From NCBI GenBank assembly GCA_016235595.1, contig JACRJX010000008.1:417092-481091 (forward strand): a DNA stretch of 64,000 bases, written 5' to 3'. The notes under the pieces were generated by a model. That model worked only from the letters and a program-made list of their open reading frames with translations. It had not been told where the DNA came from and did not search any database. The translations under genes and the position numbers were made by a program. Shown here piece after piece: positions 10,406 through 42,581 of the stretch. The stretch's first letter is position 1; every line of letters begins with the position of its first letter. The stretch comes from Verrucomicrobiota bacterium (GTDB taxonomy: Bacteria; Verrucomicrobiota; Verrucomicrobiia; CAIQCK01).

Positions 10406-10412
10406 CCCTCGC

Positions 10413-13998: not shown

Positions 13999-14592
13999 AT
14001 GACTGAAGACCAGCTGGAACATCTGAGACAAAACCAAGAGCGACTAGCTTTGGTTATGCTGCGGCATTGCATGATCCTTGCCGCGCGTCGCTACCGGTGG
14101 TCGGAGAGCCACCCTCTGCCGGAAGGCACGGATCCAGAAATCATTGTTGAAGAGGTGATACAGGCATACCTCGCCGGTGATCGCAACTTCGACGCGAAAT
14201 ATCCTATCGAGGCACAGCTGAAGAAGGGCATCGAAAGCCGGCTTTGGGCGCTGCATCAGAGGAAAGGAGCTAAAGCAGCCTCCGTGGAGGCGATGACAGA
14301 TGCCGTCGGCGACTTCATTGCTGCGGACGATCCTACGCCTGATTTCGACGTCGCGAACAATCATGATGCAAAGCTTTTATTTGGGCTTCTGTTGGAGGCC
14401 CCGGAAGTTCAAAAGAGCGAAGAACTGCAGTTTTTGGTGATGGCAATCGAGGATGGAGCTGATGACGTGAAGTCCCAATCGCAAGCGACCGGGTTTCCGG
14501 TCCCGAGAGTTTACGAACTGCGAAAGAAACTGAAGGCCGTTGTGCCGACGGTCTTGGCCGAGTTCAACAAAGGAACAGTGCAATCCACATGA
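13999..14592 (+). CDS. Sigma-70-like / ECF-like DNA-binding protein
   Basis: 197 aa. The N-terminal half (LRHCMILAARRYRW, later DPEIIVEEVIQAYLAGDRNF and LKKGIESRLWALHQRKG) follows the helix pattern of sigma region 2, where D-x-x-D/E-L/I-V-Q/E-E-V is usual. The C-terminal part (LQFLVMAIEDGADDVKSQSQ, PRVYELRKKLKAVVP) fits a region-4 helix-turn-helix. It starts an operon whose three genes overlap by 4 bp each (starts 14589 and 15002). Could be a genuine sigma factor, possibly for the phage-like RNA polymerase in this window, or a regulator derived from one. The similarity is at pattern level only. Confidence 0.5.
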   Translation: MTEDQLEHLRQNQERLALVMLRHCMILAARRYRWSESHPLPEGTDPEIIVEEVIQAYLAGDRNFDAKYPIEAQLKKGIESRLWALHQRKGAKAASVEAMTDAVGDFIAADDPTPDFDVANNHDAKLLFGLLLEAPEVQKSEELQFLVMAIEDGADDVKSQSQATGFPVPRVYELRKKLKAVVPTVLAEFNKGTVQST

Positions 14593-16061: not shown

Positions 16062-17561
16062 TCAAGCCGCAATCTTCCGCAGCCTAGTTTCGGATTGAGA
16101 CGTGGAAGTTGCCATTTTCGCCCTGCCCTTGGCCCATTGTCTCAGGCCGTTGATCTGTTCGCTCATCAGTTTCGACAACGGCACGAAGTCATTGAGCACC
16201 TGGGCAATCGTCAGGTCTGTGGGTTCACGATCATCTGCAAATGCCTGATACAGCGCATCCACGAATACGCCTTCGATCTCGGAGCCGGTCAGACCAGCAG
16301 TGGCCTTCGCCAGTTGCACCAGATCGAACTCTTCAGGCTTGCGGCCGTATTTGATGATCTGAATGCTCCAGATGGCTTCGCGCTCTTCCTGATTGGGCAG
16401 GTCGCAGAAGAACAGGTCATCCCACCGGCCTTTACGCAAGAACTCCGGCGGCAACTGCGACACATCATTGGCCGTGGCGACGATGAACACAGGTTTGGTC
16501 TTTTCCTGCATCCACGAGATGAACGATCCGAAGACACGGGATGATGTTCCGCCGTCAGTCATCCCGGAGCTTTTGCTGCCGTTGAACGATTTCTCCAACT
16601 CGTCAATCCAGAGACAACAGGGTGCAATGGCTTCCGCAGTTTGGATCACCGACCGGAGATTGCTTTCACTCTGACCGAGCAGGCCACCGAAGATCCGTCC
16701 AGCATCGAGCTTGAGCAGTGGCAGCCCGAACACCTTGGCCGTGGCCTTGGCAGTGAGGGATTTACCAGTGCCGGGGATTCCGATGATGAGCAGCCCTCTC
16801 ATCACCGGTAGGCCATACTTCTTGGCTTTATCCGAGAACCCTTCCTTGCGTTGGATCAGCCAGTCCTTCAGCACGTCCAGACCACCGATGGAATCCAACG
16901 ACTCCTTGGTGTTCACGATCTCCAATAAGCCGTTCTTTTTGATCGTCAGAGCTTTCTCTCTGGCAACAACGGCCGGATCGAGCTTGCCGGTTTCAACAAC
17001 CGACAAGGCAAACGCATTCTCTGCCTCCTGCGTGGTCAACCCGGTGGCTGCGTCAATCAGACAAGCCCGGTCCCTGTTCTCCAACTTCTTGAGTTTGGCG
17101 GACTGGACGATCCCTTCCAGAACGTGATGAATCTCCTCACGTCCTGGCAGTGCGAACTCCACCACGGTCATTTCACGTTCAAGTTCCGCTGGAAGCTTCA
17201 ACCGGCAGGCGAGCACGCACAGCGTTACGCCTTTGGTTTTAGCTGAGAGCAGTTCGTCTTTGAATGTCCTCACGGTCACTGGATTGGCTTCCTCGAAGAA
17301 CAGGTGGTAGTCCCTCAAGAGCACGATGCTGTTCTCAGGCAGCCCGGATATGGCCGCCAGGGTATCCACGGCGTCATGGCAGTCGGTGACGTTTCCTGTA
17401 GCCGTATCCACCATGCCGTCCGTGATGCTCCAGGCATACAGCTTGTGCTTCAGCTCTTCGGCGACGGCCTTCAGTTCGGCTTCAACCCGGGCTTCCTCAT
17501 GCGAAACGATGTAGAGGCCCGGATACCCTGCCCGGATATAACGCTTCAGTTGTTCTTTCAT
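16062..17561 (-). CDS. Ycf46-like AAA+ ATPase
   Basis: 499 aa. The N-terminal ~200 residues (LKRYIRAGYPGLYIVSHEEA, later NSIVLLRDYHLFF) match the domain that precedes the ATPase in Ycf46 of cyanobacteria and plastids. The AAA+ module has Walker A GIPGTGKSL (261-269), Walker B CLWIDELEK (Asp319-Glu321), sensor 1 VIVATANDV-like FIVATANDVSQLP and the arginine-finger region RKGRWDDLFF. Function in the source family is poorly known. Last gene of the leftward cluster, 24 bp after the 78-aa gene. Association with DUF2997- and DUF1257-like genes repeats the cyanobacterial Ycf46/Ycf35 neighbourhood. Confidence 0.85.
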   Translation of the reverse strand: MKEQLKRYIRAGYPGLYIVSHEEARVEAELKAVAEELKHKLYAWSITDGMVDTATGNVTDCHDAVDTLAAISGLPENSIVLLRDYHLFFEEANPVTVRTFKDELLSAKTKGVTLCVLACRLKLPAELEREMTVVEFALPGREEIHHVLEGIVQSAKLKKLENRDRACLIDAATGLTTQEAENAFALSVVETGKLDPAVVAREKALTIKKNGLLEIVNTKESLDSIGGLDVLKDWLIQRKEGFSDKAKKYGLPVMRGLLIIGIPGTGKSLTAKATAKVFGLPLLKLDAGRIFGGLLGQSESNLRSVIQTAEAIAPCCLWIDELEKSFNGSKSSGMTDGGTSSRVFGSFISWMQEKTKPVFIVATANDVSQLPPEFLRKGRWDDLFFCDLPNQEEREAIWSIQIIKYGRKPEEFDLVQLAKATAGLTGSEIEGVFVDALYQAFADDREPTDLTIAQVLNDFVPLSKLMSEQINGLRQWAKGRAKMATSTSQSETRLRKIAA

Positions 17562-19589: not shown

Positions 19590-19808
19590 CTACAGTTGGA
19601 TCTTCTGCAACGACTTGATCGTGCTCTTCACCGAGTCGATCTCCTTGTCTGCGACCTTCCGTTCCTTCTGGGCCAGCTTGAGGCTGTCTTCCACGTCGTT
19701 GAGGCCACGGATTGCTTCACGCAGGGCATCCTTGACCGCATCGACCTGCTGAATGGCCTTGGTCAAAGCCGATCCATTCTCCGATGTCTTGGTTTCGCTC
19801 TTGGGCAT
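19590..19808 (-). CDS. Possible internal in-frame product: 72-aa helical protein
   Basis: ATG 19808 (Met426 of the clamp fusion) is preceded by CCGAAAGGAAAACCATC, the same strong ribosome-binding-site type that starts other genes in this cluster. The product begins MPKSETKTSENGS and continues as a charged coiled-coil-like helix (VDAVKDALREAIRGLNDVED). It may be translated separately as well as being the clamp tail, or it may be a formerly separate gene joined to the clamp by loss of a stop. No independent evidence of expression. Confidence 0.45.
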   Translation of the reverse strand: MPKSETKTSENGSALTKAIQQVDAVKDALREAIRGLNDVEDSLKLAQKERKVADKEIDSVKSTIKSLQKIQL

Positions 19809-21083
19809 GATGGTTTTCCTTTCGGTGGTTGTTGGGGTTGAGGGTTGAGGTTGAGGTTGAGGTTGAACGGCCGGTGGTTTTGGTTCACTGGCTGGATTGG
19901 TAGTGGGCGGCGGGTCGGTTGTGGGCGGCTTCGCCTGAGCTTGTGCCGGAGGAGTGCCTTCCACGTTGACAGGCATGACGATCATCTGCCTGCCCTGATT
20001 ACGGAATCGCATGGCAGAGAGACTGTCCTGTGCTTCGAACTGGGTCAGACCGAACTCCATCGCTTGAAACAAGTAGGTCCGGTTGAGATGGATCGTGACG
20101 GGCTTGCCTTCGATCTTCACCGAAGGCACCGGAATCACCGTCCAATCGTCCTTGTGGTCCTTGCGGGCCTTCAGCTCCAGGTTGTTGCCCTTCACTGACA
20201 GGCCGATGGGCTGGTTGACGTGATCGAATCCCGGCATCCTGGGAGCGACCTGTTTGATGAGCTGCACCGCTTCAGGACCAAACTCGACCTTCAGAACCAT
20301 GTCCTGCTGGTTGGGAACGACGTTTCTCCAACGGGGGAATTCTCCCTCGGTCATCTTGACGGTGAAATCCCAGTGGTCGGACTGGAACCGGATGTCGATG
20401 CGTTTCTCCTTCGATCCCATCACACCCAGCGTCCAATCACCGTCTTGCGTGAATCCCGGCCAGTTGAGGAACTTCGTGTTGGGGATGATGAGAGACTGCT
20501 TCAGCGGCAGGCTGAACGAGTTGGCCGCGAACAGATGACGGCCATCGGTGCCCACGACGTAGTTGAGCTTCTTGTCCGACACGTCAATGAACGCGCCGTT
20601 AATGACGTAGCGGGTTGGATCATGACTGGAGCATTGCATGGCTTGAAGCAGCGCATCGCGCATCCCGTTGGGCAGGAGGAGGGTTTCTCCCAAGGTCTCC
20701 GGTGCCGTGGGCCATTCCGACGACTTGAACGACTCGACCTTCTGCTGCATCGGAGTCGAACCGATGCCGTAGCGAATTACAGCCTGATTGGCCGTGGCTT
20801 GCTCGACGCCAATGCTCTCGCTGCCGGAGCTGTTCTTGATGACCGCCACCAGTTCCTTGAACGGAACGATGACAGTCAGCGGTTTAGATTCCTGGGGTTT
20901 CTCCAGCCTGAAGGTGGCAAAGCTGTCCAGATCGGTTGTTTGCAGGGTCACTTGCCCGGCCTTGTCCCTGGCTATCTTCACAGATTGGACGATGGGCAAT
21001 GAGTGAGTCCTGCTCACCACCTTGCCAAGTCCGGTAAGGGCCGCTTTGACTTCAGTGAGCGGCAATGTGATTTCGTTGTTCAT
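19590..21083 (-). CDS. DnaN-like DNA polymerase III beta sliding clamp with a C-terminal extension
   Basis: 497 aa from ATG 21083 (CACAGGAGAACTAC upstream); the frame is open further upstream but without a ribosome binding site. Residues 1-375 show the three-domain clamp pattern: an early LPIVQSVKIARDKAG segment, the diagnostic YVVGTDGRHLFAAN (near 160), EGEFPRWRNVVP, and an end MIVMPVNVE that corresponds to the M-P-x-R/N terminus of DnaN. A Pro/Gln/Thr-rich linker (about 378-424) leads into a 72-residue helical tail. A separate clamp on an element beside its own ligase and nuclease suggests autonomous DNA replication or repair. Confidence 0.85.
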   Translation of the reverse strand: MNNEITLPLTEVKAALTGLGKVVSRTHSLPIVQSVKIARDKAGQVTLQTTDLDSFATFRLEKPQESKPLTVIVPFKELVAVIKNSSGSESIGVEQATANQAVIRYGIGSTPMQQKVESFKSSEWPTAPETLGETLLLPNGMRDALLQAMQCSSHDPTRYVINGAFIDVSDKKLNYVVGTDGRHLFAANSFSLPLKQSLIIPNTKFLNWPGFTQDGDWTLGVMGSKEKRIDIRFQSDHWDFTVKMTEGEFPRWRNVVPNQQDMVLKVEFGPEAVQLIKQVAPRMPGFDHVNQPIGLSVKGNNLELKARKDHKDDWTVIPVPSVKIEGKPVTIHLNRTYLFQAMEFGLTQFEAQDSLSAMRFRNQGRQMIVMPVNVEGTPPAQAQAKPPTTDPPPTTNPASEPKPPAVQPQPQPQPSTPTTTERKTIMPKSETKTSENGSALTKAIQQVDAVKDALREAIRGLNDVEDSLKLAQKERKVADKEIDSVKSTIKSLQKIQL

Positions 21084-21106
21084 GTAGTTCTCCTGTGGAA
21101 ATGAAA

Positions 21107-21138
21107 AGCCGGACACACCGTTGAAGGCATGTCCGGCT
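21107..21138 (-). terminator. Intergenic hairpin 3
   Basis: AGCCGGACA (21107-21115) pairs perfectly with TGTCCGGCT (21130-21138), loop 14 nt. On the minus strand the stem is followed by TTTCATTTCC and then the ribosome binding site of the clamp gene, so it could act as a weak intrinsic terminator after the 64-aa gene. Confidence 0.55.
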
Positions 21139-21168
21139 CTCCGATTGTTGATCTTGTTGGTTTGGGGT

Positions 21169-21363
21169 TTAGAGGATGGTTTTGCCGACGCAGGGCAGAC
21201 TGTGGATCTGATTGCGGATGAATTGCCGCAGGTTGGCTTCGCACTTGATGTAGAACTCGCCACCAACCCGCGTGAACTTGTGGGCCCGAGACTTGGCTGC
21301 ATCCAGTGCGAACTTCCTGACCTGGTTCCTGTTAATGAGCGGGGTCTTGATTTCGATGGTCAT
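21169..21363 (-). CDS. Small basic hypothetical protein
   Basis: 64 aa, ATG 21363 overlapping the stop of the preceding gene (ATGA at 21360-21363) with GAGGAACTCGCC upstream. Basic N-terminal half (INRNQVRKFALDAAKSRAHK) then a beta-like segment (FTRVGGEFYIKCEANLRQF). The coupling and ribosome binding site argue that it is real. Family not recognised; nucleic-acid binding would fit the charge but is unproven. Confidence 0.65.
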   Translation of the reverse strand: MTIEIKTPLINRNQVRKFALDAAKSRAHKFTRVGGEFYIKCEANLRQFIRNQIHSLPCVGKTIL

Positions 21364-21584
21364 GGCGAGTTCCTCATGTGGATGGCCAGTTCTGCCAAGG
21401 CGGATGACAGACGGCAGACTTCACGCCGATTGAGTTTTCCAGCGATCAGCGGAATCTCTGGATATGCCTCGTCGTAAACCGACAAGAGAGCTTGTTCCTT
21501 GTGAACCAGCCGCAACTTGATTTCCGTGATGTCGCCCTGCATTGGCCTCAGTTCTTTTTCCAGCTTCCTGACGCCGGTGTTCAT
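21360..21584 (-). CDS. Small helical hypothetical protein
   Basis: 74 aa. Starts at ATG 21584, overlapping the end of the ligase gene by 4 bp, and itself overlaps the next gene by 4 bp, so it is embedded in a translationally coupled run. The sequence is two amphipathic helices (RKLEKELRPMQGDITEIKLR, RREVCRLSSALAELAIHM) and is probably a small coiled coil. No family recognised. Confidence 0.65.
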   Translation of the reverse strand: MNTGVRKLEKELRPMQGDITEIKLRLVHKEQALLSVYDEAYPEIPLIAGKLNRREVCRLSSALAELAIHMRNSP

Positions 21585-22753
21585 GGCTTTCTCGCAGTTA
21601 CACCGGCAGACAGACTCCGCTGGTATGCTTCGTCATCTTCGTCACCAACCGATTTGTATTTCAACTGGTCCACCGTGCATTCGGCCGGGTCAATGTCGTC
21701 ACGCTCTCCCAGATACACCGGCTGATAGATGCAGCCGCTCTCCCTGTAGGCATACAAGTAGCGACATTCTACGATGGCTCCCACTTGCGGGATCTGCTTG
21801 TTGGCGGGGATGGTGACGTTGCCAGAATTGAACAGCATCGAGCCGCTGTAGAGCTGCAACATCACACTTCGCTTGTCGTTGATCCTGCCAACGATGAATG
21901 AGGCCGTGGCGTAGAACTTGTATTTGAGCTGGGGACCACCGCTGTTGGGGCGGCCTGCCGTGTAGGGAGCATCAAGTCGCTTGAATACGATGCCTTCCTT
22001 GTTTTTTCGACGCAGACGCTCAAACAGTGCTCTCTTCTGCTGCGGCTTGAACGCTGTCTCAGCGAGTTCAATGTGAGGATGCTGGGCAGAGGCCAGCAGG
22101 TTCATCAACTCCAAGTAACGCTCGCAGTAAGGCCGATTGCGGATGTCCTTGCCATTGACCATGAGGAGGTCGAAAGCAAACAGCACATCGGCTACAGCCT
22201 CGTCATCCATGATGAAGACACCGGGGATGTTTCGAACCTCGTGAAGCACAACTGAAGGCAACCCGATGATGAGACCTTTTTTGTTGATGCCGTGACAGGC
22301 CACTTCCTGCTTCTGGACCAGCACATGTCGCCCATCGTATTTCTCCTGGGCACAGTGCGTGGTGTTGTTGATGAACTGCTCCACGTCAGCTTCCTCTATG
22401 GGATTGAGCAACTGTGGCTGGATGCCCGACACCTGCTGGGCCTTGTCGCTGTGTTGATACGGCGTTCCGTTGGGGCCGGGCGTGTAGCCCTTGGCCATCT
22501 TCTCCTTCACCAGCTTGTCGAATATCTTCTTGGCCGTGGCATAATCCACCGGGCTGGAAGTCTTCGTGCCGGTTTGGAGGGTGCTGTTCCGGCGTCCGTA
22601 GGCGAAGTTGACGACGAACAAACTGCCCTTCGGCTCGATCATCGCCACATATTCCTTGTCCGACGACCCCTGCCTGAAAAACAGGTGGGCTTGATCGGAC
22701 TGTGCCGCTGAACCCGATTCAATGGCCGGGCCGCTTTGTGTCATGACTAACAT
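21581..22753 (-). CDS. ATP-dependent DNA ligase with N-terminal WGR-like domain
   Basis: 390 aa, ATG 22753 with AAAAGGAGAACATC upstream. Residues about 22-95 resemble a WGR domain (GSSDKEYVAMIEPKGSLFVV, FAYGRRNSTLQTGTKT). The nucleotidyltransferase core has motif I EKYDGRH with Lys about 140, motif III FAFDLLMVNG, motif IV EGIVFKR and motif V LKYKF, followed by an OB-like C-terminus (VGRINDKRSVMLQLYSG). It should adenylate itself and seal nicks. Most bacteria use NAD-dependent LigA, so an ATP-type ligase here points to element-specific DNA metabolism. Downstream small genes are coupled to it. Confidence 0.88.
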   Translation of the reverse strand: MLVMTQSGPAIESGSAAQSDQAHLFFRQGSSDKEYVAMIEPKGSLFVVNFAYGRRNSTLQTGTKTSSPVDYATAKKIFDKLVKEKMAKGYTPGPNGTPYQHSDKAQQVSGIQPQLLNPIEEADVEQFINNTTHCAQEKYDGRHVLVQKQEVACHGINKKGLIIGLPSVVLHEVRNIPGVFIMDDEAVADVLFAFDLLMVNGKDIRNRPYCERYLELMNLLASAQHPHIELAETAFKPQQKRALFERLRRKNKEGIVFKRLDAPYTAGRPNSGGPQLKYKFYATASFIVGRINDKRSVMLQLYSGSMLFNSGNVTIPANKQIPQVGAIVECRYLYAYRESGCIYQPVYLGERDDIDPAECTVDQLKYKSVGDEDDEAYQRSLSAGVTARKP

Positions 22754-25067: not shown

Positions 25068-25886
25068 TCAGTGCCAGCTTCTGCAGTTATCGAAAAACTC
25101 GCAGGATTGGCAGTGGAGACCCGGTGATGGCACGAAGTCCTCACGGTCCAGACCGGAGACGTAGGACTCAATGCCCTTGAACAACCGTGTCTGTTGGTTG
25201 TCCGTCATCGGTCCAAACGGCGTGACCACGATCTTCGGCTTCTTGAGCTTCACCAGATGATGCAGCTCAATCCCGGTCTCTTTCCTGCCTGTGGATTCCC
25301 GATACATGATCGCATAGCAGGAGGTCTGGGCTTCGTGGAGATGCTGGGCTTTCTTGACCGTGGGTGTCTGGCTCGCTGTCTTGAAGTCCACGATCCGCCC
25401 GCCGGCTCTCACCAGGTCAATGACGCCAATGAGCTTGGGCAAACCGTGTTCCGACAAATCGGCTTCCACGGAGACTTCGACCGCTTCCGGTTTCTCATCC
25501 AATGTGATGGGCGTTTCCCTGAAGTAGGTCTCCAGCAAAGCCCAGCCTGTCGTTTGCTCCGCTTCTTCCTCACCCTGCCAGTTGATGACCGCCTCGGCCT
25601 GCTCCTCCTTCCAATTCTCATGGAAGGTTTGCTTCAAGGCTTCGATGTCCACGGTCTTGTGTCTCCACCGTCCCAGATTCCACGACTGCAACACCGAATG
25701 AACGATGCTGCCGACGTAGAGTGCCGGAGGAGAAGGCTTGGGCAGTCGCAGAACGTAGCGGAACCAGAACTTCAGCCGGCACAGTTGCCAGCAGTTGAGC
25801 CTTGAGGCCGAGATGGTCTCCATCAACACATCCAGCCTGTCCTTGATGCCGGACTGTCTGGGTGGAGCCGCTGCCGGTGCGATCAC
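25068..25886 (-). CDS. RecB/Cas4-type PD-(D/E)xK nuclease with a four-cysteine Fe-S signature
   Basis: 272 aa, GTG start at 25886 overlapping the upstream stop (GTGA). LNCWQLCRLKFWFRYVLRL near residues 30-50 carries an N-terminal cysteine. The nuclease core follows with GSIVHSVLQ, IGVIDLVRAG (metal-binding Asp), RIVDFKTAS (D-x-K) and AQTSCYAIMY (the Q-x3-Y motif of the RecB family). The C-terminal CQSCEFFDNC supplies three more cysteines, as in AddB/Cas4-like Fe-S nucleases. Expected function is DNA end processing in recombination or replication of the element. It partners with the ssDNA-binding-like gene immediately upstream. Confidence 0.86.
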   Translation of the reverse strand: MIAPAAAPPRQSGIKDRLDVLMETISASRLNCWQLCRLKFWFRYVLRLPKPSPPALYVGSIVHSVLQSWNLGRWRHKTVDIEALKQTFHENWKEEQAEAVINWQGEEEAEQTTGWALLETYFRETPITLDEKPEAVEVSVEADLSEHGLPKLIGVIDLVRAGGRIVDFKTASQTPTVKKAQHLHEAQTSCYAIMYRESTGRKETGIELHHLVKLKKPKIVVTPFGPMTDNQQTRLFKGIESYVSGLDREDFVPSPGLHCQSCEFFDNCRSWH

Positions 25887-30388: not shown

Positions 30389-32296
30389 CTAGCGCGCCTT
30401 GACCAGCTTCTCCTCCTCGACTGGCTCTGGCAGCGGCACCCAGTCATTCAAGACCGTCAGGCCATACTCCCCGGCGATCTTGGATGCGTGCTTGAGGAAG
30501 AAATCCAGCATGTAGCCTTGGCGAGCGTGGAACTTCTCATCCCAAACCGACTTACCCAGCACCACAGCGTAAATGTGGGTCTGCACGCACTTGTCGATGA
30601 CCTCAAGGAGTTGGCCCACGCAAAAGCCCCGATTCAGTTCAAACAGCTTCTCCGCCACCTCCAAATCAGCCGGGCAATAGACGACGACTCCCTTGTCCAC
30701 GAACTCGCCGGTGTGGTCGATGTATCCCCAGGCATTGCGGGCTTGGAGGGCATTGCGAAGCACACGGGCTTTTTCGGCCGGGGCGAGGTCTGGATCGGAT
30801 TCCTTGGCCTGGTCGACGCTGGCGTGTTGTCTCTTATTCTCCTCGTACCGTTCCCGCATCAGGGTTCCGTTCTCCTCGTAGAGCCGGCCGAACATCACCA
30901 GTTCCAAGTCATAGATGAATGGGCTCAGATTATCAATGGAATGACAGCAAAAAACAGTATCCTTCCGCAGTGCCACAATCGAGTTGACCACGAATTCCAA
31001 AGAGGCCCGGAAGAAAGTCGGTTTGGCGGTCTTGAAAAACGGAGGAGCTTTGGAATCATGTTGTTGAACGGTAGACTGGAAATGGGGCAGGAACAGGATT
31101 CTGACCTCGGCAACAAGCTGGTCCATGTCCTTGATGACCGCGAAGGCCCGAATGGTGGCATTGGGCAGGGAATCAACGAATGAGCGGGACAGCCTTCGGA
31201 CGATTGACACGGAAATTGAGCCAGGGTCAATCTTGGGTTGATCCCCGTAGCGAATGCTGGGGTCTCTGTATTGAAATAGAGCCTGCTGTTCCCCGTTGAT
31301 GGCCTTGAGTTGCTTGTAGGTCAAGGGGGCATCCATTTCGTCTCCTGCATCTCTCTTGTCCCCGGAATCCGTCGCATGTCCGGCGCAGCCCTTGATGCCG
31401 GTGGATGAAGGGGAACAGAGATGACTGTCTTGAGGAGAAGCCGGTCCCCTTGCCAGGACATTGTCATCCGTCTGTCCGGAGTTAGATTCAAAAACAGGAG
31501 CAGGCGAAGCCTGCGCTTCTTCTTTGAATGGCTTTCCAAAGGGGCTTCCAAGGGTTTCCAAAGGTTTACAATGGGTAACGTCGTCCGGTTTTGTCCACTT
31601 TTCATCCGGTTCTGTCCTCTTCCCATCCGGTTTTGTCGCCCTGTCGTCCGGTTCTGTCCTCTTGATATCCGGAATTGTCCCTTTGGTGTTGAGCAGCTCG
31701 GGCAGGGTGTAAGTCAGCTTCCGGGTAGGATGCTTGACGACCCATCCATCCAGCTTGTCCAAGGTCCGCTTGATGGTCTTGGCGTCAAAAGGGATGCTTC
31801 GAGCCAACATGGCCGGTGACATCGCTATGTAGATGTCCTTGAGAGGCTTATTGGTTTTGGCTGGCTTCTCTAGCAACTCGAACCGCATGTGAGCGATCAA
31901 TACGCCTGCGCAGATGCTGATGTTGGCCGCGTCCAGGTCAACTCGGATCAGGGGATTCTTTTCCACGGCATCGTTGACCTCCTGCGGAACCGTGTACCAC
32001 CGCGTCTGATCGCGCTTCCGAGTGTTGTAGTTGCCCACCTGGATCAGCTTCTTGGTCTCCAGTCGCTTCAACGTATCTGCCAGTGCTGACCTCTCGAAGT
32101 AGGGAAACTTCTCGGCCACTTTGGTGATGGGGTTAAAAAACCAGTATTTCCCATCTTGGAAGGTTTTCTTACTCTTGCGCTTCTCGGCTTTACGAACCTT
32201 GTGGGCGATGAACTTTGCTACGATGGCTTCCGGGACACCGTGTTCAATTGCGAACGCACGGGAGAAACGATGGCTAACGGAGGGTTTTGTGCTCAT
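30389..32296 (-). CDS. Plasmid-type replication initiator-like protein (winged helix)
   Basis: 635 aa from ATG 32296; the frame is open to 32347. The N-terminal ~200 residues show two winged-helix units: FFNPITKVAEKFPYFERSAL then LADTLKRLETKKLIQVGNYN, and AMLARSIPFDAKTIKRTLDK with LDGWVVKHPTRKLTY. This is the pattern of replication-initiator and helper wHTH proteins. A disordered middle contains five 7-residue repeats of type K-R-T-E-P-D-D (about 245-280), encoded by exact 21-bp repeats. The C-terminal half (from about 340) is a separate globular domain without a known motif. RepA-type initiation is inferred from fold pattern, the repeats and neighbouring ParB-like and integrase genes. Confidence 0.55.
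   Translation of the reverse strand: MSTKPSVSHRFSRAFAIEHGVPEAIVAKFIAHKVRKAEKRKSKKTFQDGKYWFFNPITKVAEKFPYFERSALADTLKRLETKKLIQVGNYNTRKRDQTRWYTVPQEVNDAVEKNPLIRVDLDAANISICAGVLIAHMRFELLEKPAKTNKPLKDIYIAMSPAMLARSIPFDAKTIKRTLDKLDGWVVKHPTRKLTYTLPELLNTKGTIPDIKRTEPDDRATKPDGKRTEPDEKWTKPDDVTHCKPLETLGSPFGKPFKEEAQASPAPVFESNSGQTDDNVLARGPASPQDSHLCSPSSTGIKGCAGHATDSGDKRDAGDEMDAPLTYKQLKAINGEQQALFQYRDPSIRYGDQPKIDPGSISVSIVRRLSRSFVDSLPNATIRAFAVIKDMDQLVAEVRILFLPHFQSTVQQHDSKAPPFFKTAKPTFFRASLEFVVNSIVALRKDTVFCCHSIDNLSPFIYDLELVMFGRLYEENGTLMRERYEENKRQHASVDQAKESDPDLAPAEKARVLRNALQARNAWGYIDHTGEFVDKGVVVYCPADLEVAEKLFELNRGFCVGQLLEVIDKCVQTHIYAVVLGKSVWDEKFHARQGYMLDFFLKHASKIAGEYGLTVLNDWVPLPEPVEEEKLVKAR
31584..31688 (-). repeat. 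Five 21-bp direct repeats inside the initiator gene (iteron-like)
   Basis: On the plus strand TCCGG recurs at 31584, 31605, 31626, 31647 and 31668, exactly every 21 bp. The first four units share the core TCCGGTTYTGTC and the fifth is TCCGGAATTGTC. The spacing equals two helical turns, as in replication iterons, and the array also encodes a 7-residue protein repeat. Either selection could maintain it. Confidence 0.75.
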
Positions 32297-32412
32297 GAGT
32301 GTGTTTTCACTTTTGTGTGTCTTGCTCGTGGTTTGCGGAGCCTCCATCGCGGTTCACGCAACGAAGGCTCCGCACCACGCATCAGATGGCTACGGCCTAC
32401 TGCCGTTGCCCT

Positions 32413-34602: not shown

Positions 34603-34791
34603 TTAAAGACGTTCCGCTGTGGTTTTCAGGAACGTGTCTATTTGCTCCACCGAAATCCTCAGGTGACGCAAAGCCCGTGAGGGTTGGAAGAACCCGCGCC
34701 GGATCAGATCGCGCACTGAACTCACGCTGACGTTGAGTGCGGTCGCAGTTTGCTTCACGGAATAGCAGCGGAGAGGTATTGACGATTGCAA
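34603..34791 (-). CDS. Excisionase-like helix-turn-helix protein
   Basis: 62 aa. CYSVKQTATALNVSVSSVRD then LIRRGFFQPSRALRHLRIS is the MerR-like winged-helix layout of excisionase-family proteins: helix-turn-helix, then a basic wing ending in R-I-x-x-x-x-I-D-x-F. No ATP or metal motif. A recombination directionality factor would fit an integrated element whose integrase lies 6.5 kb away, but it could also be a transcription regulator. Confidence 0.75.
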   Translation of the reverse strand: MQSSIPLRCYSVKQTATALNVSVSSVRDLIRRGFFQPSRALRHLRISVEQIDTFLKTTAERL

Positions 34792-35095: not shown

Positions 35096-35770
35096 CTAAC
35101 TGCAAGCAGGGGCAGTGGGCGCGCTGCTGTTTGCCGGGTCGTGGCTTTGAGAATGAAGCATCTTGTCGCCATATTCTTTCAGCACGTCTTCCCACCGAAA
35201 GCGAACCTTCTTGCTGAGCGGCACTCCTTGCACTTGGATTTTCGGAAGCAACATCTTTAGCGTCTCTTCCGTGATGGGCTCGCTAGATTTCGGCACAAAG
35301 TGGGTCACAGCGCGTGCCACCCAAGCCAGTTTCGCCTCGTGAGAAAACAGAATTCGGACCGGCGCCACTCCATCGGGCCACACCAATTCGCACTCGTCAA
35401 GAAACCTGGAAAAGCTCGACGCTTCCAACTCGGCATCAAGCGTCAGCATTTGCAGGAGATCCTGCTGAAGAACCGAACATCCTCGATCCAGTTCGCTGGC
35501 GTTTGCTGGCCCAAGATCCCACCAGTCGCGGCCCCCCAAGAAAGAACTCCTTTCTCTGGTCAGCCACTTCGCGAGGGCCTTGTAGGTGCGATACCTTGGG
35601 TAGGAAGCTGTTCGCACCGGCGTGGTAAAAGAGCAGCGCCCGTCAATTATCATCAACTCATGTGAGTTTTGCGTGAAAGGATCGGCACCACTCAAGTCCG
35701 ATGGCTCATCCGACTGGCGGATAGTGGCCGGCAATAGTATTTCGTCAGCTGATTGATCGGCATGTGTCAT
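35096..35770 (-). CDS. Hypothetical protein coupled to the fused RNA polymerase
   Basis: 224 aa. Its ATG at 35770 overlaps the polymerase stop (ATGA at 35767-35770), so the two are translated together. Not recognised. Visible parts are a disordered acidic N-terminus, a central basic helix (YPRYRTYKALAKWLTRERSS), a Trp-containing stretch (FLGGRDWWDLGP), a helix with LLQMLTLDAELEASSFSRFL, and a C-terminal basic helix (KKVRFRWEDVLKEYG). Constant pairing in one transcript suggests an accessory, assembly or promoter-recognition factor for the polymerase, which is inference. Confidence 0.65.
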   Translation of the reverse strand: MTHADQSADEILLPATIRQSDEPSDLSGADPFTQNSHELMIIDGRCSFTTPVRTASYPRYRTYKALAKWLTRERSSFLGGRDWWDLGPANASELDRGCSVLQQDLLQMLTLDAELEASSFSRFLDECELVWPDGVAPVRILFSHEAKLAWVARAVTHFVPKSSEPITEETLKMLLPKIQVQGVPLSKKVRFRWEDVLKEYGDKMLHSQSHDPANSSAPTAPACS

Positions 35771-38700
35771 GGCCGCACCTCATCGTTTGAGCGGCGGAAA
35801 CCGAAGAGATTGAACAGCACTCGGGATGCGGGTTCCCTGAGTGAACTGGACTTTTTGAAGTAAGCCCCGAGTAATAACTGTCTAGCCTGCGCCTTAAACG
35901 AAATGCGCGTCATCAAGCCTGCAGATTCTGCGGCTGATTCCAGTGATTTCCCGTCGCTGTCATGGATCACACGCCAAAGAATCTGAAAATGCCGATCAAG
36001 CAAACCTTCGTAGGCTTCCAATCCCTGCATTTCCTTGATGAAACTATCCGCGCCATTAACGGTTTTGAAAAAGCGCTTTCTTCCTAGGCTGCCGAGATTT
36101 TGCCTCACACCCTGAATGCTGACGCCCTTTTCCCCCGTGTGAAAACTTTGCATCGACAGTTGCGTGCCGCGTTCCCCAATCGATTGCGCCGCGATCAAGC
36201 CAGCCGGGAATCCCACCGCAGGCTCCAAACCATCAGGCAGTAACCCGTAACACTTGGCACAGAATCCGCCCTGTGCCCCGCACGAGATCAGTTTCAGCTT
36301 GTCCGCAGTATTTCCACAATCAGCGATCACAATCTCCATAGGCCAGAGAGCGGTCACCAACCGACGGGTTAGTGCGCCGGAATCCTTGGTGATGAGTTGC
36401 TTGTCACACATCGAACTGCGGGAGTTCATCGCTGCATAGAAGGCTTGTCCAGGATTCATCCCGCCAACAAGGGGTGTGGGGATATTGAAATTCTCGTCCG
36501 GGATATTGTATCGCTCTTCGCCAGGATCAAGGACACCTCGCGCCGCCACCAGCTGGCGCACCTGTTTTTGGCCACGTGCTCCCGAGATGGCCATGGCTGC
36601 CACGTGAAGCCCGCTTGTTGCAAAGACGACCTTCCCATCCAGCACCTGCCCCATTGATTTCTCAACGACCGACTGCAGGTCATCATCGTTGGTCTTATCG
36701 GGCTTGCTTTGGGCTAGCTCCAAGAGATCATAAAAACCAAAGGAAGCGCCGATTCGCGAGCAGCACTCAAACGCCAAGTTACTCAATTGCCAGATCACAT
36801 CAGGTGCGACTTTCGGATGGTCCACCGCCAAATGCTTCAGCAGTCTGGCACCCTCGGCCCAGACAAGCAGTTTCCCGGAAATGAGATCACGGCAACAAGA
36901 GGAAGGCAGCGCTTGGAGCCATTCATCTCCGAGGTCAGCGTCCTTCCGGCTGAGCCAGTAGAGGCCCAGAACAAAATCCTGCTCATACTGCGGGAGGATT
37001 TCTCCGCTCGCCAGCGAGAGCATGTTGTTCGACGGCAGGAGCCCGATGGCTTCCTTCCTCGCCTCGGCCGAAACAGGGATGTGAATGGCCATTTCGTCCC
37101 CATCGAAGTCGGCTCCAAACCCCTTGCAGGCCAGCGGGCAGAGTTGCAACACATCACCGACCTCTGGTGGTAGTGGGACGGGATGAAACGCCTGCATGTT
37201 ATCGCGATGAAGAGATGGCTGCCGGTTGAGTATGGCCAGTATCCCCGGACGGTCTTTCAGAAACTGGCGAAACAGCTGGTGAACATCCCCAAGCAGTGCC
37301 TCCTTCTTCTTCGATCTCCGCCATGACCAATGTTTTAGAAAGCTGAGCACGGGTTCTCCGCCGCCAACCAGAATCTCTTTGCTGCTGCGTTTGTCTTCTG
37401 CCCAGTTGACCAGTTCGTCGCCGAGCAGTTCAGTCAAGACAGCCGTGGGTATCCCAACCTCATCCCAGCGCAGGGCCGGGTTCGGCGTGATGACCATCCT
37501 CGCCGACCTGTCTACGCGACGGCCCAAACCGTGGCGCCTGATGAGCCCTTTCTTTCCTTTTAATCGACCGACAAGCAATCGGAACAGTTCCCGCACGCTT
37601 TCTTTTATGTCCTTAACTGCTTGCTGCGTTTTCGTCTCATCGTTCTTGGCATTTTCGAATCTGTGACACGCTTCGAGAAGCGGGCCGTAACCGCGCTCCA
37701 CCAAGGGGTCTTGGACGTGCTTGTTGGAGCGGGAACTCGGCATCCGATAGCAGATAGGCAATACGGGAATGTTTTCGACCTGCGGCAGTTTCTTCTCAGA
37801 GATGCCATTATCGTCGACGAATCGCTGAGCCTTCTCTTTTGCCTCCGTTTCTCCTCCGTCAAAAAAAGCATCCAGCGGGTACGGTATCTTCGTGGGCAAC
37901 TTGATGTAAGCCCAACGCGCTTCGTCATCGCTGGAGTCGTCGCTGTTCATGTCCCCAAAGAGACTTCGATCAAAAAGCCCGCCAGGAATGGGTCTTTGTT
38001 GAGTTTTATCGAAGGGGGGATTTGCTTTCAGCGGCGTCACCTTGTGGTTCGGACATGCCACCTGCATTTCCCCAACTCGGCTCCTCCCTCCTTCCTTTTG
38101 AAACTCCGCGATTATCAATTTGCCTTCGACGTTCTTTTCGTTCCCAAGTGTGGCTTGCGTGTAGGCGTATAGCGGGCTCAGTTGCTTCGGCCATTTTGGT
38201 GGGGCATCGTCTTCATCCGGCCCGATCTCAGCCTTGAGGTCCGCGTTGCCTGGAGAAAACTTGATTCTGAGCCTCCCAGCCGGTTTGTCCTCGCTTAGGG
38301 AACAGAGGGCCACATGATAACCCTTGTCAGTTTTGCGCAGCTCACCGTCGATGGTGTAGTCGAGGCTCTCCAGCAGATCCTCAAGCTGGAGAGAGAGCTT
38401 TTTGCTCTGGTTGCGGTGCGCCTTCGCACCGATCCTGGCCTCATCCAGCAAGACAAACGAGCAACTTTTCGGAGCGTTGCATGAAAATGGAGCCCAAACA
38501 ACCTCGCGAAAGCAATCAGCAGACTTCAGTTTCTTGTCGGCACCGACCCGCTTGGCGGCATCGCTGGGTTCAACAAAACCGAGCCTGATTTGTTGGTGGT
38601 CGACTTGAAGATCCATCAGCAGTGCGAAGAGGTGGTCCTTAAGACGTTCTCCAAAACCACCAAGACTGTCGTCTTGAGTTTCATCAGTCGTTCCCCATAG

Positions 38701-41106
38701 CCGCTGTGCCAATATTGAGTTAGCTTTCCGGCCCAGCATTTCTTCCAGGATGTACTCCGCTTGATGTCCTGCGAGAGCCCAGATCTCCATCTCGCCCACG
38801 CGCTGACCCCCTCCAAGAATCCGACCATGTGCCGCTTGGCCCGTTACCAGTGAATACCGCGCGCCTGCACCGCCCCTGCGTGCCTGTGCCTTCAGTTCCG
38901 GAACCTGCCCAAGACGAACGATGTGTTGGAATCCCACGACGACCGGGGAACAAGTCTGGCTGCCATCAGGAAGCAACAGCCGGATTCTGCCGAAACGATC
39001 CAAACCCCTCTTCTCTAACAACTGCTGCACTTTGCCGTGATCCAGTGCGCCCAGAAATGGTTGGGCTAATCCTGCGTCCGGCGAGATTCCGCCGCGCGTG
39101 AAATCCGCTTGTTTGCAACCCGCATGAAGCAGCCAGCCGATGTGCGTCTCCAAGAGCTGGCCCAGATTCATTCGTGAGATGACCCCGTGCGGATTGAGCA
39201 GGACGTCGATCGGCCTGCCGCGCAAGTCCTCTGGCAACGACTCGTCTTGAGGCAAGCGAGGCATCTGATCTGAAGGCACAATGGCCCCGATGACCCCCTT
39301 GTTGCCGTGCCGCCCCATCAGCTTGTCGCCCAGGCCCAGCTTGAGGTCTTTTACCAATTCATACTCCAACACTCCGCCCATCCATTTTGCGCCACGGCGA
39401 AATTCGATGGTTTTGAGCGTCGCTGGGGACCGGTCAAGATAATGCAGTTTAGCGAATTGGTCATTCCGGCCTTCCAGACGGAACGCAGCGATCAAACTGT
39501 TTCCAAAGAGTTTGCCGCCTTCTTTGCCAAAGATGACTGGTACCCATCCAGGCTTCAAGGTTTTGCGATTCCGCTCCCGCATTTCAATGTCCAAGAGGCC
39601 ATCTTCGACCACATGCTGACCAACGACAATCGCATCATCGACGTTCATTCCATACCACGGCAGGTAGGCGACCAAGAGATCCACGCCCAAGGCTAGATTT
39701 CCTCCGTTGTCTGATGCGTCGGGACACATTCCAGTGTGAACCAAAGGCTGGATGAACTTGGCAACGGCTTCCTCCCCTCCTGTCCTCACCGCTGGCTGGC
39801 TGCGTTTCGCCACGGGCACAGCCTGCAGAAGATTCTTTGCACCCATCATGCAACGCGCACCGTCGTTGTGTTCGTAAAAGGGGATGAGGCCAGCCGCATA
39901 GCCGAGCTCATTATGAGGAACACTCTGGTTTGCTGGAGTGATCTTGCCTTCCCAATCCACTTGGGCGCCGCGTGCCAATTGCAAGGTGAGTCCGACCAGT
40001 TCAGATTCCGGTGTTTGAACCGGGCAGATCCGGTCACGGAAGGACGGGTGGTTCTGTCTAGACCTTGCCGGCTTCATTCCCGCCGATTCACGAGTCATCC
40101 GATAGCGGCGAACCTGAGTCAGCAAGGCAGCCATATAAACCGGGTTCTTTGGCTCAACCCATTGCAGCGGCTCAAACCCGTTTTGCGTTTCGCGTGTCTG
40201 GTCGTGCTCCCATCCCCTCGGGAAAAGACGAGCGGCGATCAAATCCTGTTTTTCAATGAGGCGATTCCACAAATCCAACCTCTGTTGCGCATCGGAATCC
40301 TTCGGCGGATTGTTGTTGAAAGCGTCCTCTACGTATTTTACGCCACTCTTCAAAAGGCGATGGATTATCGCTTCAGCAAGCCTTGCCTTGAGCCACACCG
40401 GAAACGTGATGAGGGATCTGTGGTCAAGGTCGTCCTCATCGGTGATAATAGCCTCGGGCGACTTGCTATTCTTTGTGGCGAGATCATGAACTTTCGCCCA
40501 GAACTCATGACGCTTGTCCGTCCCCTCCTTTGGTGGAAGCACAACAGGTCCTTGCTGCTGGCAAACCTCCTGAAGGAATCCGGGCAACAAGTCATACGAA
40601 GGTAGGATTTGAGGCGAATCTGAAAAGACGTCATCCCTCTCTTCTTCCTCATCCTTTTCTTCAGTCAAATCCTCGCACGATTCCCCCGCATAGTTGCCCC
40701 CGGGCAAGCCCAGCCGCCAGGATTCGGCCTTCTTGCCTTTTTCCACCGCCTTCCACAGGTGTCGAAATCCAGGGCGTTCACCCAACCAAGCAGCCCACAC
40801 GGCAAGCCTGGACACAACCGAGTTCTTGCTGCGCTTCACAAAAACGCCGTGGTAGGGCAGAGCGATTTCGAGCCGCAGCGTATCGGGGGAATTCTTCCAA
40901 GTGATGGCAAGCTCGCCGAGGAGATCCAGATTTGCCGCCACTGTTTTCTTGGCGGTCTCGGCGCTCGGCAGCTTCAACTCAACGCGAAACCCTTCGCCGA
41001 AAACCGGACCAAGGCTGTAGTCCAAATGCTGCCCAGCCGCAGCTGCCCAACTCGCCGCGTCTTCTTGACCTAACCAAAAAAGCCCTGGTTGTTGACCAGC
41101 CTGCAT
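35767..41106 (-). CDS. Single-chain RNA polymerase: beta and beta-prime catalytic parts fused in one polypeptide
   Basis: 1779 aa, ATG 41106 after GAAGAGAGGAC. Residues 1-870 correspond to beta: HPSFRDRICPVQTPE (353-367), GLIPFYEHNDGARCMMGA (406-423), MNVDDAIVV with Asp490/Asp491, GDKLMGRHGNKGV with Lys595 and Lys603, LNPHGVISRMNLGQLLETH (637-655) and GGQRVGEMEIWAL. Residues about 1030-1779 correspond to beta-prime: GLGRRVDRSARMVI (1193-1206), LNRQPSLHR, the Mg triad GADFDGDEMA (Asp1333, 1335, 1337), bridge helix SGARGQKQVRQL (1508-1519), zinc cysteines 1597, 1609, 1616 and 1619, and trigger loop GTQLSMQSFH (Met1652, His1656). Cellular RpoB plus RpoC total about 2750 residues. The first beta-prime zinc ribbon is missing and flap and jaw regions are short. 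Expected to be an active element-specific transcriptase. Confidence 0.95.
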   Translation of the reverse strand: MQAGQQPGLFWLGQEDAASWAAAAGQHLDYSLGPVFGEGFRVELKLPSAETAKKTVAANLDLLGELAITWKNSPDTLRLEIALPYHGVFVKRSKNSVVSRLAVWAAWLGERPGFRHLWKAVEKGKKAESWRLGLPGGNYAGESCEDLTEEKDEEEERDDVFSDSPQILPSYDLLPGFLQEVCQQQGPVVLPPKEGTDKRHEFWAKVHDLATKNSKSPEAIITDEDDLDHRSLITFPVWLKARLAEAIIHRLLKSGVKYVEDAFNNNPPKDSDAQQRLDLWNRLIEKQDLIAARLFPRGWEHDQTRETQNGFEPLQWVEPKNPVYMAALLTQVRRYRMTRESAGMKPARSRQNHPSFRDRICPVQTPESELVGLTLQLARGAQVDWEGKITPANQSVPHNELGYAAGLIPFYEHNDGARCMMGAKNLLQAVPVAKRSQPAVRTGGEEAVAKFIQPLVHTGMCPDASDNGGNLALGVDLLVAYLPWYGMNVDDAIVVGQHVVEDGLLDIEMRERNRKTLKPGWVPVIFGKEGGKLFGNSLIAAFRLEGRNDQFAKLHYLDRSPATLKTIEFRRGAKWMGGVLEYELVKDLKLGLGDKLMGRHGNKGVIGAIVPSDQMPRLPQDESLPEDLRGRPIDVLLNPHGVISRMNLGQLLETHIGWLLHAGCKQADFTRGGISPDAGLAQPFLGALDHGKVQQLLEKRGLDRFGRIRLLLPDGSQTCSPVVVGFQHIVRLGQVPELKAQARRGGAGARYSLVTGQAAHGRILGGGQRVGEMEIWALAGHQAEYILEEMLGRKANSILAQRLWGTTDETQDDSLGGFGERLKDHLFALLMDLQVDHQQIRLGFVEPSDAAKRVGADKKLKSADCFREVVWAPFSCNAPKSCSFVLLDEARIGAKAHRNQSKKLSLQLEDLLESLDYTIDGELRKTDKGYHVALCSLSEDKPAGRLRIKFSPGNADLKAEIGPDEDDAPPKWPKQLSPLYAYTQATLGNEKNVEGKLIIAEFQKEGGRSRVGEMQVACPNHKVTPLKANPPFDKTQQRPIPGGLFDRSLFGDMNSDDSSDDEARWAYIKLPTKIPYPLDAFFDGGETEAKEKAQRFVDDNGISEKKLPQVENIPVLPICYRMPSSRSNKHVQDPLVERGYGPLLEACHRFENAKNDETKTQQAVKDIKESVRELFRLLVGRLKGKKGLIRRHGLGRRVDRSARMVITPNPALRWDEVGIPTAVLTELLGDELVNWAEDKRSSKEILVGGGEPVLSFLKHWSWRRSKKKEALLGDVHQLFRQFLKDRPGILAILNRQPSLHRDNMQAFHPVPLPPEVGDVLQLCPLACKGFGADFDGDEMAIHIPVSAEARKEAIGLLPSNNMLSLASGEILPQYEQDFVLGLYWLSRKDADLGDEWLQALPSSCCRDLISGKLLVWAEGARLLKHLAVDHPKVAPDVIWQLSNLAFECCSRIGASFGFYDLLELAQSKPDKTNDDDLQSVVEKSMGQVLDGKVVFATSGLHVAAMAISGARGQKQVRQLVAARGVLDPGEERYNIPDENFNIPTPLVGGMNPGQAFYAAMNSRSSMCDKQLITKDSGALTRRLVTALWPMEIVIADCGNTADKLKLISCGAQGGFCAKCYGLLPDGLEPAVGFPAGLIAAQSIGERGTQLSMQSFHTGEKGVSIQGVRQNLGSLGRKRFFKTVNGADSFIKEMQGLEAYEGLLDRHFQILWRVIHDSDGKSLESAAESAGLMTRISFKAQARQLLLGAYFKKSSSLREPASRVLFNLFGFRRSNDEVRP

Positions 41107-41254: not shown

Positions 41255-42385
41255 TTATTTCGGCGGGTCTGGCGGAGGCGTCTCTGGTTTGGACGCAGCG
41301 TCAAAGGTCATCCGCTTGGCCATCAGCGTTGAATGCTCATCCCGCAGGTGGCCGTAGGTCTTGGCCACCAACACGCCACCGTCTTTGTGGCCCAGCCATC
41401 CAGCAATCACTTTGAAGTCAATCCCGGCTTCGATCGCGTTGGAGCAGAAGAAGTGACGCAGGCTGTGGTGGGTGAAGTGGGGCAGCTTGGCGTTGCGACA
41501 GGCGGTGTTCATGGCCTGTTCCGCTTTTGTAATCGAGAACAGTTTGTCTGTCGTTTCTGGGGGGGTGAGCCGCCCGTCACGCATTTCCATCAACAACCGC
41601 TCTAAGGAAGGAAACAGCGGCACCGATCTCGCTTCGTGGTTCTTCGTGCCGGTTTCTCCGCCTGTAACCATGAACGCCTTCTTGTCAAAGTTTACATCGC
41701 CCCATTGCACCTGTATGGCTTCGCCTAATCTGCAGCCGCCATAAGCCAGAAACTCGCACAAATCGGCAGCTTCTTGTGCCTGTGGTTCTGCCCGCAACTG
41801 GTCGATCAGGGTTGTGAACTGTAGCTTGGTCGGAATCACCAAGGGCGGTCTGCTTTCTTTCCTGCGGTGAATTGTTCGAGCTGGATTATCCAGAATCAAG
41901 CCGTGACTTGCGGCGTAGTCCAGAATCTGAATCAGTGTTTCTCGGTCAATGTTGAATGTGCGTGCTGATGCATCTTTCGCCCGTTTCGTCGCCCATTCTT
42001 CCACTTGAAGTTTGCCGATGGATCTGACCGTGGCTTTGAAATGAGGCTCCAACGATGCGATGGAAGTTCTTCGCCGTTCATGCGACGAAGGTTTCAACGC
42101 CCCGGCCTTGGTTTCCAGCCACCGCTTGGCGAGATCTGCAAAAAGCAGATCACCAGCGTCTTTTGTATTGAGCCGCACGACTTTTTGGCGTAATGGTTCC
42201 AATCGCCTTTTGGCTAGTTCTTTGTCGGTGGTTTTGAGCGACTGTTTAATTTGTCGGCCGCCTCGTTTGAAAAGGGCGTAGTAGATTTTGGACGTGGCTT
42301 CCCGGTATAAACACTCGCCGACGTTTTCGAGTTGTTGCCCTTTGCCTGACGATGTTGGATTATTTGTTGTCGGCTTTTTCTTCAT
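41255..42385 (-). CDS. Tyrosine recombinase / integrase
   Basis: 376 aa. N-terminal SAM-like core-binding domain (about 80-170), then the catalytic domain with Arg219 (GGCRLGEAI), His307 and Arg310 (HHSLRHFF), His333 (WLGHKDG) and nucleophile Tyr344 (KTYGHLRDEH). All five signature residues are present, so it should be active. It is transcribed away from the tRNA-Ser gene that begins 105 bp upstream of its start, a common layout for elements inserted at tRNA genes. It most likely integrates and excises the region to its left. Confidence 0.92.
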   Translation of the reverse strand: MKKKPTTNNPTSSGKGQQLENVGECLYREATSKIYYALFKRGGRQIKQSLKTTDKELAKRRLEPLRQKVVRLNTKDAGDLLFADLAKRWLETKAGALKPSSHERRRTSIASLEPHFKATVRSIGKLQVEEWATKRAKDASARTFNIDRETLIQILDYAASHGLILDNPARTIHRRKESRPPLVIPTKLQFTTLIDQLRAEPQAQEAADLCEFLAYGGCRLGEAIQVQWGDVNFDKKAFMVTGGETGTKNHEARSVPLFPSLERLLMEMRDGRLTPPETTDKLFSITKAEQAMNTACRNAKLPHFTHHSLRHFFCSNAIEAGIDFKVIAGWLGHKDGGVLVAKTYGHLRDEHSTLMAKRMTFDAASKPETPPPDPPK

Positions 42386-42489
42386 GGCGAAGAGAATTTA
42401 CAGGGTTACTACTTTGGGTTACAAGCAGTTTTTTTACAGAAACGTCAACATGACGCAAACCACTGAAAAGAAAGTAGTTACAATGTTGC

Positions 42490-42581
42490 GGAGAGGTGCC
42501 TGAGTGGCCGAAAGGGGCGGTTTGCTAAACCGTTGTAGCTGTAAAAAGCTACCTAGGGTTCGAATCCCTACCTCTCCGCCA
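42490..42581 (+). tRNA. tRNA-Ser(GCU)
   Basis: 92 nt including an encoded CCA. Acceptor arms GGAGAGG (42490-42496) and CCTCTCC (42571-42577) pair fully. D-arm, anticodon stem CGGTT/AACCG with loop containing GCT (42524-42526), a long variable arm with stem GTAGCT/AGCTAC typical of serine tRNAs, and T-arm GGTTCGAATCC are all visible. The gene is intact and stands between the integrase and chromosomal genes, so it marks the likely right end of the inserted element. Confidence 0.95.

Follow-up and report, generated by a model that had tools for sequence, protein, structure and literature searches.

A single-chain RNA polymerase and its likely sigma54-derived companion in a tRNA-integrated element of a Verrucomicrobiota bacterium

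The window analysed here is a 64,000-nucleotide stretch of a Verrucomicrobiota bacterium genome (assembly GCA_016235595.1, contig JACRJX010000008.1, positions 417,092 to 481,091 of the forward strand), which contains the greater part of a mobile element integrated in a tRNA-Ser(GCT) gene. The element carries a gene for a single-chain RNA polymerase (RNAP), in which beta and beta-prime parts are joined in one protein, and directly 3′ of it a small companion gene, absent from the original prediction, that is likely derived from sigma54 (RpoN). We consider it probable that the two proteins together are a private enzyme for the element's own genes. Across the relatives, the sequences are best read as a private transcription system that would, in some lineages, be gated by a sensor of RNA damage.

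The polymerase gene is a single open frame of 1779 codons on the minus strand (35767..41106); the plus-strand reading of this interval is interrupted by stops. Pfam places the beta domains Rpb2_3 (7e-7), Rpb2_6 (6e-38) and Rpb2_7 (2.5e-6, under its cut-off) before the beta-prime domains Rpb1_2 (7e-27), Rpb1_5 (5e-15) and a weak Rpb1_3 (0.02), the last standing before Rpb1_5, as is usual. The beta catalytic domain (Rpb2_6, residues 578-762) is found at 38821..39375, the beta-prime double-psi barrel with the Mg triad D1333/D1335/D1337 (Rpb1_2, residues 1195-1356) at 37039..37524, and the region of the bridge helix, second zinc site and trigger loop (Rpb1_5, residues 1549-1688) at 36043..36462, all on the minus strand. 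A PDB sequence search gave 203 matches, and the 60 listed are all RNAP subunits (best E 2.6e-48). The original prediction had read a beta/beta-prime polymerase in one frame from the letters alone, which Pfam, the PDB search and an alignment of 114 sequences (the element polymerase and 113 relatives, all of at least 1500 amino acids, aa) now confirm.

The catalytic residues named at that time were correctly numbered and are kept throughout the alignment. The beta lysines K595 and K603 and the beta-prime residues D1333 and D1335 are present in 114/114 sequences, D1337 and the trigger-loop M1652 in 113 each, H1656 in 109, and the four cysteines of the second zinc site in 109 to 110. With both double-psi barrels, the Mg triad and the beta lysines, the protein is a two-barrel RNAP, and RNA synthesis by it would be expected from this conservation. 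The trigger-loop position that we take to be equivalent to E. coli beta-prime R933 (other E. coli equivalents are assumed likewise) is Gln in the element polymerase and in 87 of the 114. The stretch joining the beta and beta-prime parts (residues 876-1021; 38044..38481, minus strand) contains a conserved set, C876 (112/114), C882 (110/114), C1018 (112/114) and H1021 (105/114), that is likely a zinc site. A structure model, proposed earlier as a check, was computed for residues 520-1700 from 51 aligned rows (mean predicted local distance difference test, pLDDT, 84.2; predicted template-modelling score 0.78). It matches RNAP beta-prime chains in Foldseek, with that of T. thermophilus at the top (E 1.6e-27).

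Among 5.8 billion proteins searched, 524 relatives were found at E values up to 1e-3. The 114 aligned proteins are those of at least 1500 aa (element protein included) among the best 120, with a median length of 1798 aa; two relatives bear the names Kiritimatiellae and Verrucomicrobiota. The host has its own rpoB on contig C12 (1287 aa), with rpoC beside it. A tree of the concatenated beta/beta-prime core (631 columns) was built from 32 family members, five bacteria, 11 of the fetched archaeal loci, and sequences from phages and viruses; of 72 rows 50 were kept, the 22 dropped being sparse phage or viral ones. All 32 family members are separated from bacteria, archaea and the two kept viral rows by a 100% split, and the host RNAP groups with the bacteria. 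A second tree, of beta-prime, with 14 of the 32 members and more phage rows (41 kept, 12 dropped), again splits the family from all others at 100%. The phage RNAPs kept in both trees fall outside the family; their branches are long, the one next to the family very long, and the trees support the split rather than an exact attachment point. The divergence of the polymerase that was originally supposed is borne out, as is its separateness from the host's own, and both trees set the family apart from cellular and phage enzymes with full support.

The element is inserted in tRNA-Ser(GCT), measures 47,194 bp from core to core and spans C38:412385-459619. The intact tRNA gene lies at its right end (42490..42581, plus strand), where the 41-bp attR core (42488..42528, plus strand) covers the 5′ half of the tRNA to the anticodon; an identical attL is found at C38:412385-412425, 4.7 kb beyond the window's left edge. 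Two congeners show the empty site, the sequence that flanks the left repeat on its outer side continuing there directly into an intact tRNA, and a third congener has an intact tRNA with a different upstream sequence. A 22-bp repeat inside the right end (42401..42422) has a second copy inside the left end (C38:412553-412574) and is likely an integrase arm site. A tyrosine integrase gene (41255..42385, minus strand; PF00589, 7e-19) stands directly upstream of the polymerase gene. Integrase, att repeats and the empty site of the congeners together mark a tRNA-integrated mobile element; the tRNA association had been foreseen, the position of the left end outside the window had not. Among the 20 other element open reading frames sent to Pfam, no relaxase, secretion or capsid gene, such as would mark an integrative conjugative element or prophage, was found. 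The insertion has cut tRNA-Ser(GCT) off from its original upstream sequence and put a new one in its place (42380-42490), which makes transcription of the tRNA from element DNA probable.

The companion gene (35096..35770, minus strand; 224 aa) overlaps the stop of the polymerase gene by 4 bp. Clustering of 13 polymerase neighbourhoods, 11 of them from a single sister family (that of genome G282), recovered a companion-type gene in 10. A companion profile search of 96 sister-family genomes found 13 companions, including those of all 11 polymerase-positive genomes; in the other two the polymerase is cut by a contig edge and its C-terminal part, recognised by the family profile, overlaps the companion frame, which brings adjacency to 13/13 in this family. 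The window companion shares 14-28% identity with the sister companions and 56 and 63% with two metagenome proteins. With these identities, and found at 3.8e-7 by a profile built without the window type, it is a distant member of the companion family. In G514, from another family, a 196-codon frame begins 9 bp after the polymerase frame, and its C-terminal motif matches the profile made without the window type (1.5e-4 over the frames searched; 14.6 bits, where the best of 2000 shuffles reaches 5.1). This companion (L147, 5135 onward), like that of the window, extends past the shared C-terminal motif, and by eye the extension may be a remnant of the RpoN domain of sigma54. No separate companion was found in G139, whose polymerase is 2013 aa long with an extra tail. 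The companion looks fused to the polymerase there: with each of the two companion profiles the tail outscores all of 2000 full shuffles and all of 2000 local ones, although the local margin is narrow with one profile (10.0 against 9.8 bits) and the plain E-value is non-significant. In P0188, which may be a chimeric contig, a companion homologue is joined to PF18174 and PF18175, which we take to be of the HU-CCDC81 type.

Structure search, profile comparison and Pfam, each weak alone, agree on the DNA-binding half of sigma54 (ELH-HTH and RpoN). In the structural alignment, companion residues 32-199 (35174..35677, minus strand) correspond to sigma54 residues 271-467, and sigma54 accounts for 14 of the 34 Foldseek rows and 25 of the 29 VIA rows. 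Two companion members match Pfam Sigma54_DBD, and a joint companion profile places the same half on sigma54. These comparisons suggest that the companion is likely derived from the promoter-binding half of sigma54. A scan for sigma54-type promoters (at least 9 of 11 positions, GG and GC fixed), which reaches strong sites only, gave no hits, and shuffled sequences gave practically none; the consensus letters, like the names of sigma54 and RtcR motifs used throughout, are those we take to be current. By our reading, the sigma54 proteins of G000 and G465 (L164, L165) contain some 65 extra residues, CxxC pairs among them, inserted in the DNA-binding domain ahead of the VSR motif.

A gene of the RtcR type, combining a CARF domain with the AAA+ domain of sigma54 activators, is found in 10 of the 13 neighbourhoods (10 of the 11 from the sister family), downstream of the polymerase on the opposite strand and 0.7 to 5.0 kb away. 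CARF (PF06956) and Sigma54_activat (PF00158) were identified by Pfam in one member, and the other nine were assigned via BLAST clustering. A profile of the linked type was built from eight linked genes, and a line at 600 bits was drawn after the scores had been seen. Scores above this line are reached in 12 of the 96 sister-family genomes, the remaining copies lying at 204-520 bits, and 10 of these 12 also have the polymerase or companion (Fisher 1.6e-9); the eight genes used for the profile have inflated scores of their own. Within these genomes, linked copies mostly outscore the rest of the RtcR-like copies by a wide margin; that of G452 reaches only 442 bits. The exceptions to co-occurrence run both ways: the draft genomes G393 and G084 have an RNAP-type RtcR gene (G393:C78:3406-5253; G084:C61:7384-9216) with no polymerase or companion detected, while G416, G431 and G452 have polymerase or companion with no copy above 600 bits, and the short RNAP contig of G416 holds no RtcR-cluster gene. 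The loop that contacts sigma54 has a GAFTGA-like sequence in seven of the 10 RtcR-type genes and is lost in G198, G282 and G424. None of the host genome's nine PF00158 matches, six of them strong, falls inside the window element; the host's sigma54 gene is on C47.

Further genes recur in these neighbourhoods. A cluster (c3) weakly resembling extracytoplasmic function (ECF) sigma factors is found near the polymerase in 5 of 13 loci (L112 12145-12852, L133 3779-4744, L137 11836-12633, L139 14786-15577, L109 9296-9712), directly upstream in G433; the one member scanned gave only weak SigE matches (0.02 and 0.0043), and c3 was rejected as an ECF sigma factor. In G452 and G461 (L130 11737-15643, L132) the polymerase is preceded in the same direction by an AAA_5 gene, matching PADLOC PDC-M26A, and a gene that matches PDDEXK_7 weakly.

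The fused frame, the conserved residues, the ends of the element with its empty site, and the adjacency and co-occurrence of the genes are observed; catalysis, partner binding, promoter choice, activator action and service to the element's own genes are inferred. As we picture it, the polymerase would supply both catalytic barrels in a single chain, and the companion would bind promoter DNA by a sigma54-type helix-turn-helix and so place the promoter on the polymerase. Pfam recognised neither alpha nor omega in the 20 other element frames, so the polymerase would do without these subunits or borrow those of the host. In the Kiritimatiellae-type relatives, by analogy with the known role of RtcR at sigma54, cleaved RNA sensed by the CARF domain would cause the RtcR-type protein to open the promoter complex. 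The window element lacks a gene for such an activator, and the N-terminus of its companion is short, so the pair would there start unaided or use a host activator. With its own polymerase and a sigma54-like partner, the element would probably read its own genes. That a one-chain RNAP, a miniature sigma54-derived initiator and a CARF-AAA+ activator fired by RNA cleavage together form a self-contained, signal-gated system is a more tentative proposal, to which we give slightly less than even weight. Such a system would, as far as we know, be the first case of a bacterial-type RNAP on non-viral mobile DNA that starts in an enhancer-dependent manner of its own.

A different account accepts an active and private polymerase, and makes the companion another subunit, an assembly factor or acidic regulator whose helical fold only resembles sigma54. 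Several results favour it and weigh against a sigma54 descent. The companion model has low confidence (pLDDT 59.6); profile tests detected no sigma54 core-binding domain in the companion, and neither hhalign nor HMM searches gave a match to region I; window-type or sister-type companions taken alone have no clear sigma54 match; and the sister companions have a long acidic N-terminal stretch, where that of the window is short. A likeness to region I read by eye in the sister companions was dropped, and region I is not claimed, because the profile test did not support it; a core-binding domain hidden in the N-terminus of the RNAP was likewise rejected (E 0.14). The same companion half is nevertheless put on sigma54 by both structure and joint profile, two members match Sigma54_DBD, and the neighbouring AAA+ protein is of the class that acts on sigma54. 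We consider this account rather improbable.

Slightly less improbable, though still unlikely, is that polymerase, companion and RtcR form a defence or RNA-damage response module carried as cargo by mobile elements, in place of an element transcriptase. The RtcR-type gene near the sister-family set, the AAA_5 and PDDEXK_7-like genes before it in two genomes, and the defence-type genes of the window element would all suit such a module, as would the binding of tRNA halves with cyclic phosphate by the CARF domain of RtcR, described in PMC7790460. Against it, the window pair adjoins the integrase and excisionase-like genes and lies 19 kb from the defence cargo, an integrase is directly upstream of the polymerase in G139, and the two companions scanned match no PADLOC model. 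The dedicated transcriptase of an integrative element originally proposed fits the window, and G139 too has an integrase beside its polymerase; none of the nine open reading frames sent to Pfam from the sister-family loci is an integrase. A decayed or recent copy of host rpoB-rpoC is scarcely credible. By profile score the closest cellular sequences are indeed bacterial (beta about 154 bits, at most 83 for archaea), but the frame is intact, the catalytic residues are kept over 114 sequences, and the family stands apart at 100% from the host polymerase, which groups with other bacteria, unless long branches mislead both trees. Because of the trees and the conserved residues, this origin was rejected. 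A private enzyme for the element's genes remains the reading that we prefer.

The family is sparsely distributed. With the family profile at E 1e-150 and in overlapping genome samples, the polymerase was found in 5/387 genomes of the phylum, 11/96 of the sister family, 6/240 of the class of G139 and 1/384 of the window's own class, in 14 different genomes altogether. Within the order it is present in 1/7 genomes at this threshold, the six without it including three congeners. No full-length relative was found in the viral, phage and plasmid collections searched: IMG/VR viral contigs, scanned with two exact peptide patterns, gave only 20 partial matches (23-32% identity), and none of the 45 phage and 66 plasmid records matching the polymerase has a single place covering 80%, several of those listed carrying plain rpoB/rpoC annotation. 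A phage origin was rejected on these results. In a scan of genome contigs, strong matches among at least 80 loci were confined to the fragment contigs L004 and L005, the latter from a Hydrogenedentota metagenome-assembled genome, and the rest are mostly archaeal.

The remaining genes of the element include, each on the minus strand, an excisionase-like HTH_17 protein (34603..34791; PF12728, 7.4e-10), a DNA polymerase III beta-type sliding clamp (19590..21302; PF02767, 1.3e-8), an ATP-dependent DNA ligase with a WGR domain (21581..22753; PF01068, 5e-11), a PD-(D/E)XK nuclease (25068..25886; PF12705, 1.3e-28) and an AAA ATPase with no Sigma54_activat match (16062..17561; PF00004, 3.5e-26). Of the neighbours named in the original prediction, Pfam supports integrase, clamp, ligase and excisionase-like protein; for the supposed replication initiator (30389-32347) Pfam gives nothing, and its NCBIfam match is not significant. 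The left part of the element (window -2884 to 15823; L128 and window) reads as defence cargo, with AbiEii (PF08843), IrrE-type peptidases, an AAA_18-adenylosuccinate synthetase fusion, DUF7002, type I restriction-modification genes (by reading only) and a ThiF gene with PADLOC E1-E2 matches. Two candidate assignments were rejected, DarT for 10212-11078, which Pfam gives as DUF7002, and a sigma factor for 13999-14592, which has no match. Just left of attL, outside the element, a candidate type III restriction-modification pair was read at L128 2411-6738.

If the preferred reading is true, bacterial mobile DNA can carry its own two-barrel RNAP and its own start mechanism without being a virus, which suggests orthogonal transcription that the host or its phages cannot easily shut off. 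The polymerase would also offer structural work a compact relative of the cellular enzyme in one chain, the companion would be a natural test of the minimal requirements of a sigma54 factor, and studies of how two-barrel polymerases diversified would have a new branch to draw on. Titles and abstract openings of the open-access literature searched gave no report of a fused RNAP that has a sigma54-like partner or is carried by a non-viral element of bacteria.

Compared with known systems, the companion resembles sigma54 in the structural alignment of its residues 32-199 with residues 271-467, and differs in being only 224 aa long without detected region I or core-binding domain. In the one member scanned, the sister-locus activator has the domains of RtcR and an NCBIfam hit to it at 319 bits; it differs in sitting near the RNAP pair and in scoring under the equivalog cut-off of 650. 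The CARF domain of RtcR itself binds 5′ tRNA halves with cyclic phosphate and the protein then oligomerises, as stated in PMC7790460. The RpoB-RpoC fusions of the NCBIfam models PRK09603 and PRK14844, which we take to be those of Helicobacter and Wolbachia, likewise have beta and beta-prime in one chain and in the same order. Their model lengths, however, are 2890 and 2839 against 1779 aa, the element polymerase reaches 299.5 of the 5372 bits that the curated cut-off of the first requires and 276.3 of the 4632 for the second, and its host keeps separate rpoB and rpoC besides. The multisubunit RNAPs of jumbo phages and of the mReC Caudovirales (PMC7598289, PMC7481178) are similarly divergent two-barrel enzymes on a mobile genome; the Yersinia phage examined has its two RNAP subunits in separate genes, in contrast to the one chain of the element, and the element polymerase did not group with the phage RNAPs, non-virion (nvRNAP) and mReC, kept in the trees (22 and 12 sparse rows dropped). 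The fused RNAP of crAss-like phages, which joins beta and beta-prime, and YonO are single chains as here, and are described in PMC7481178 as so divergent that homology to the cellular subunits is hard to identify. By that published description they are set apart from the element polymerase, which Pfam matches at 1e-38.

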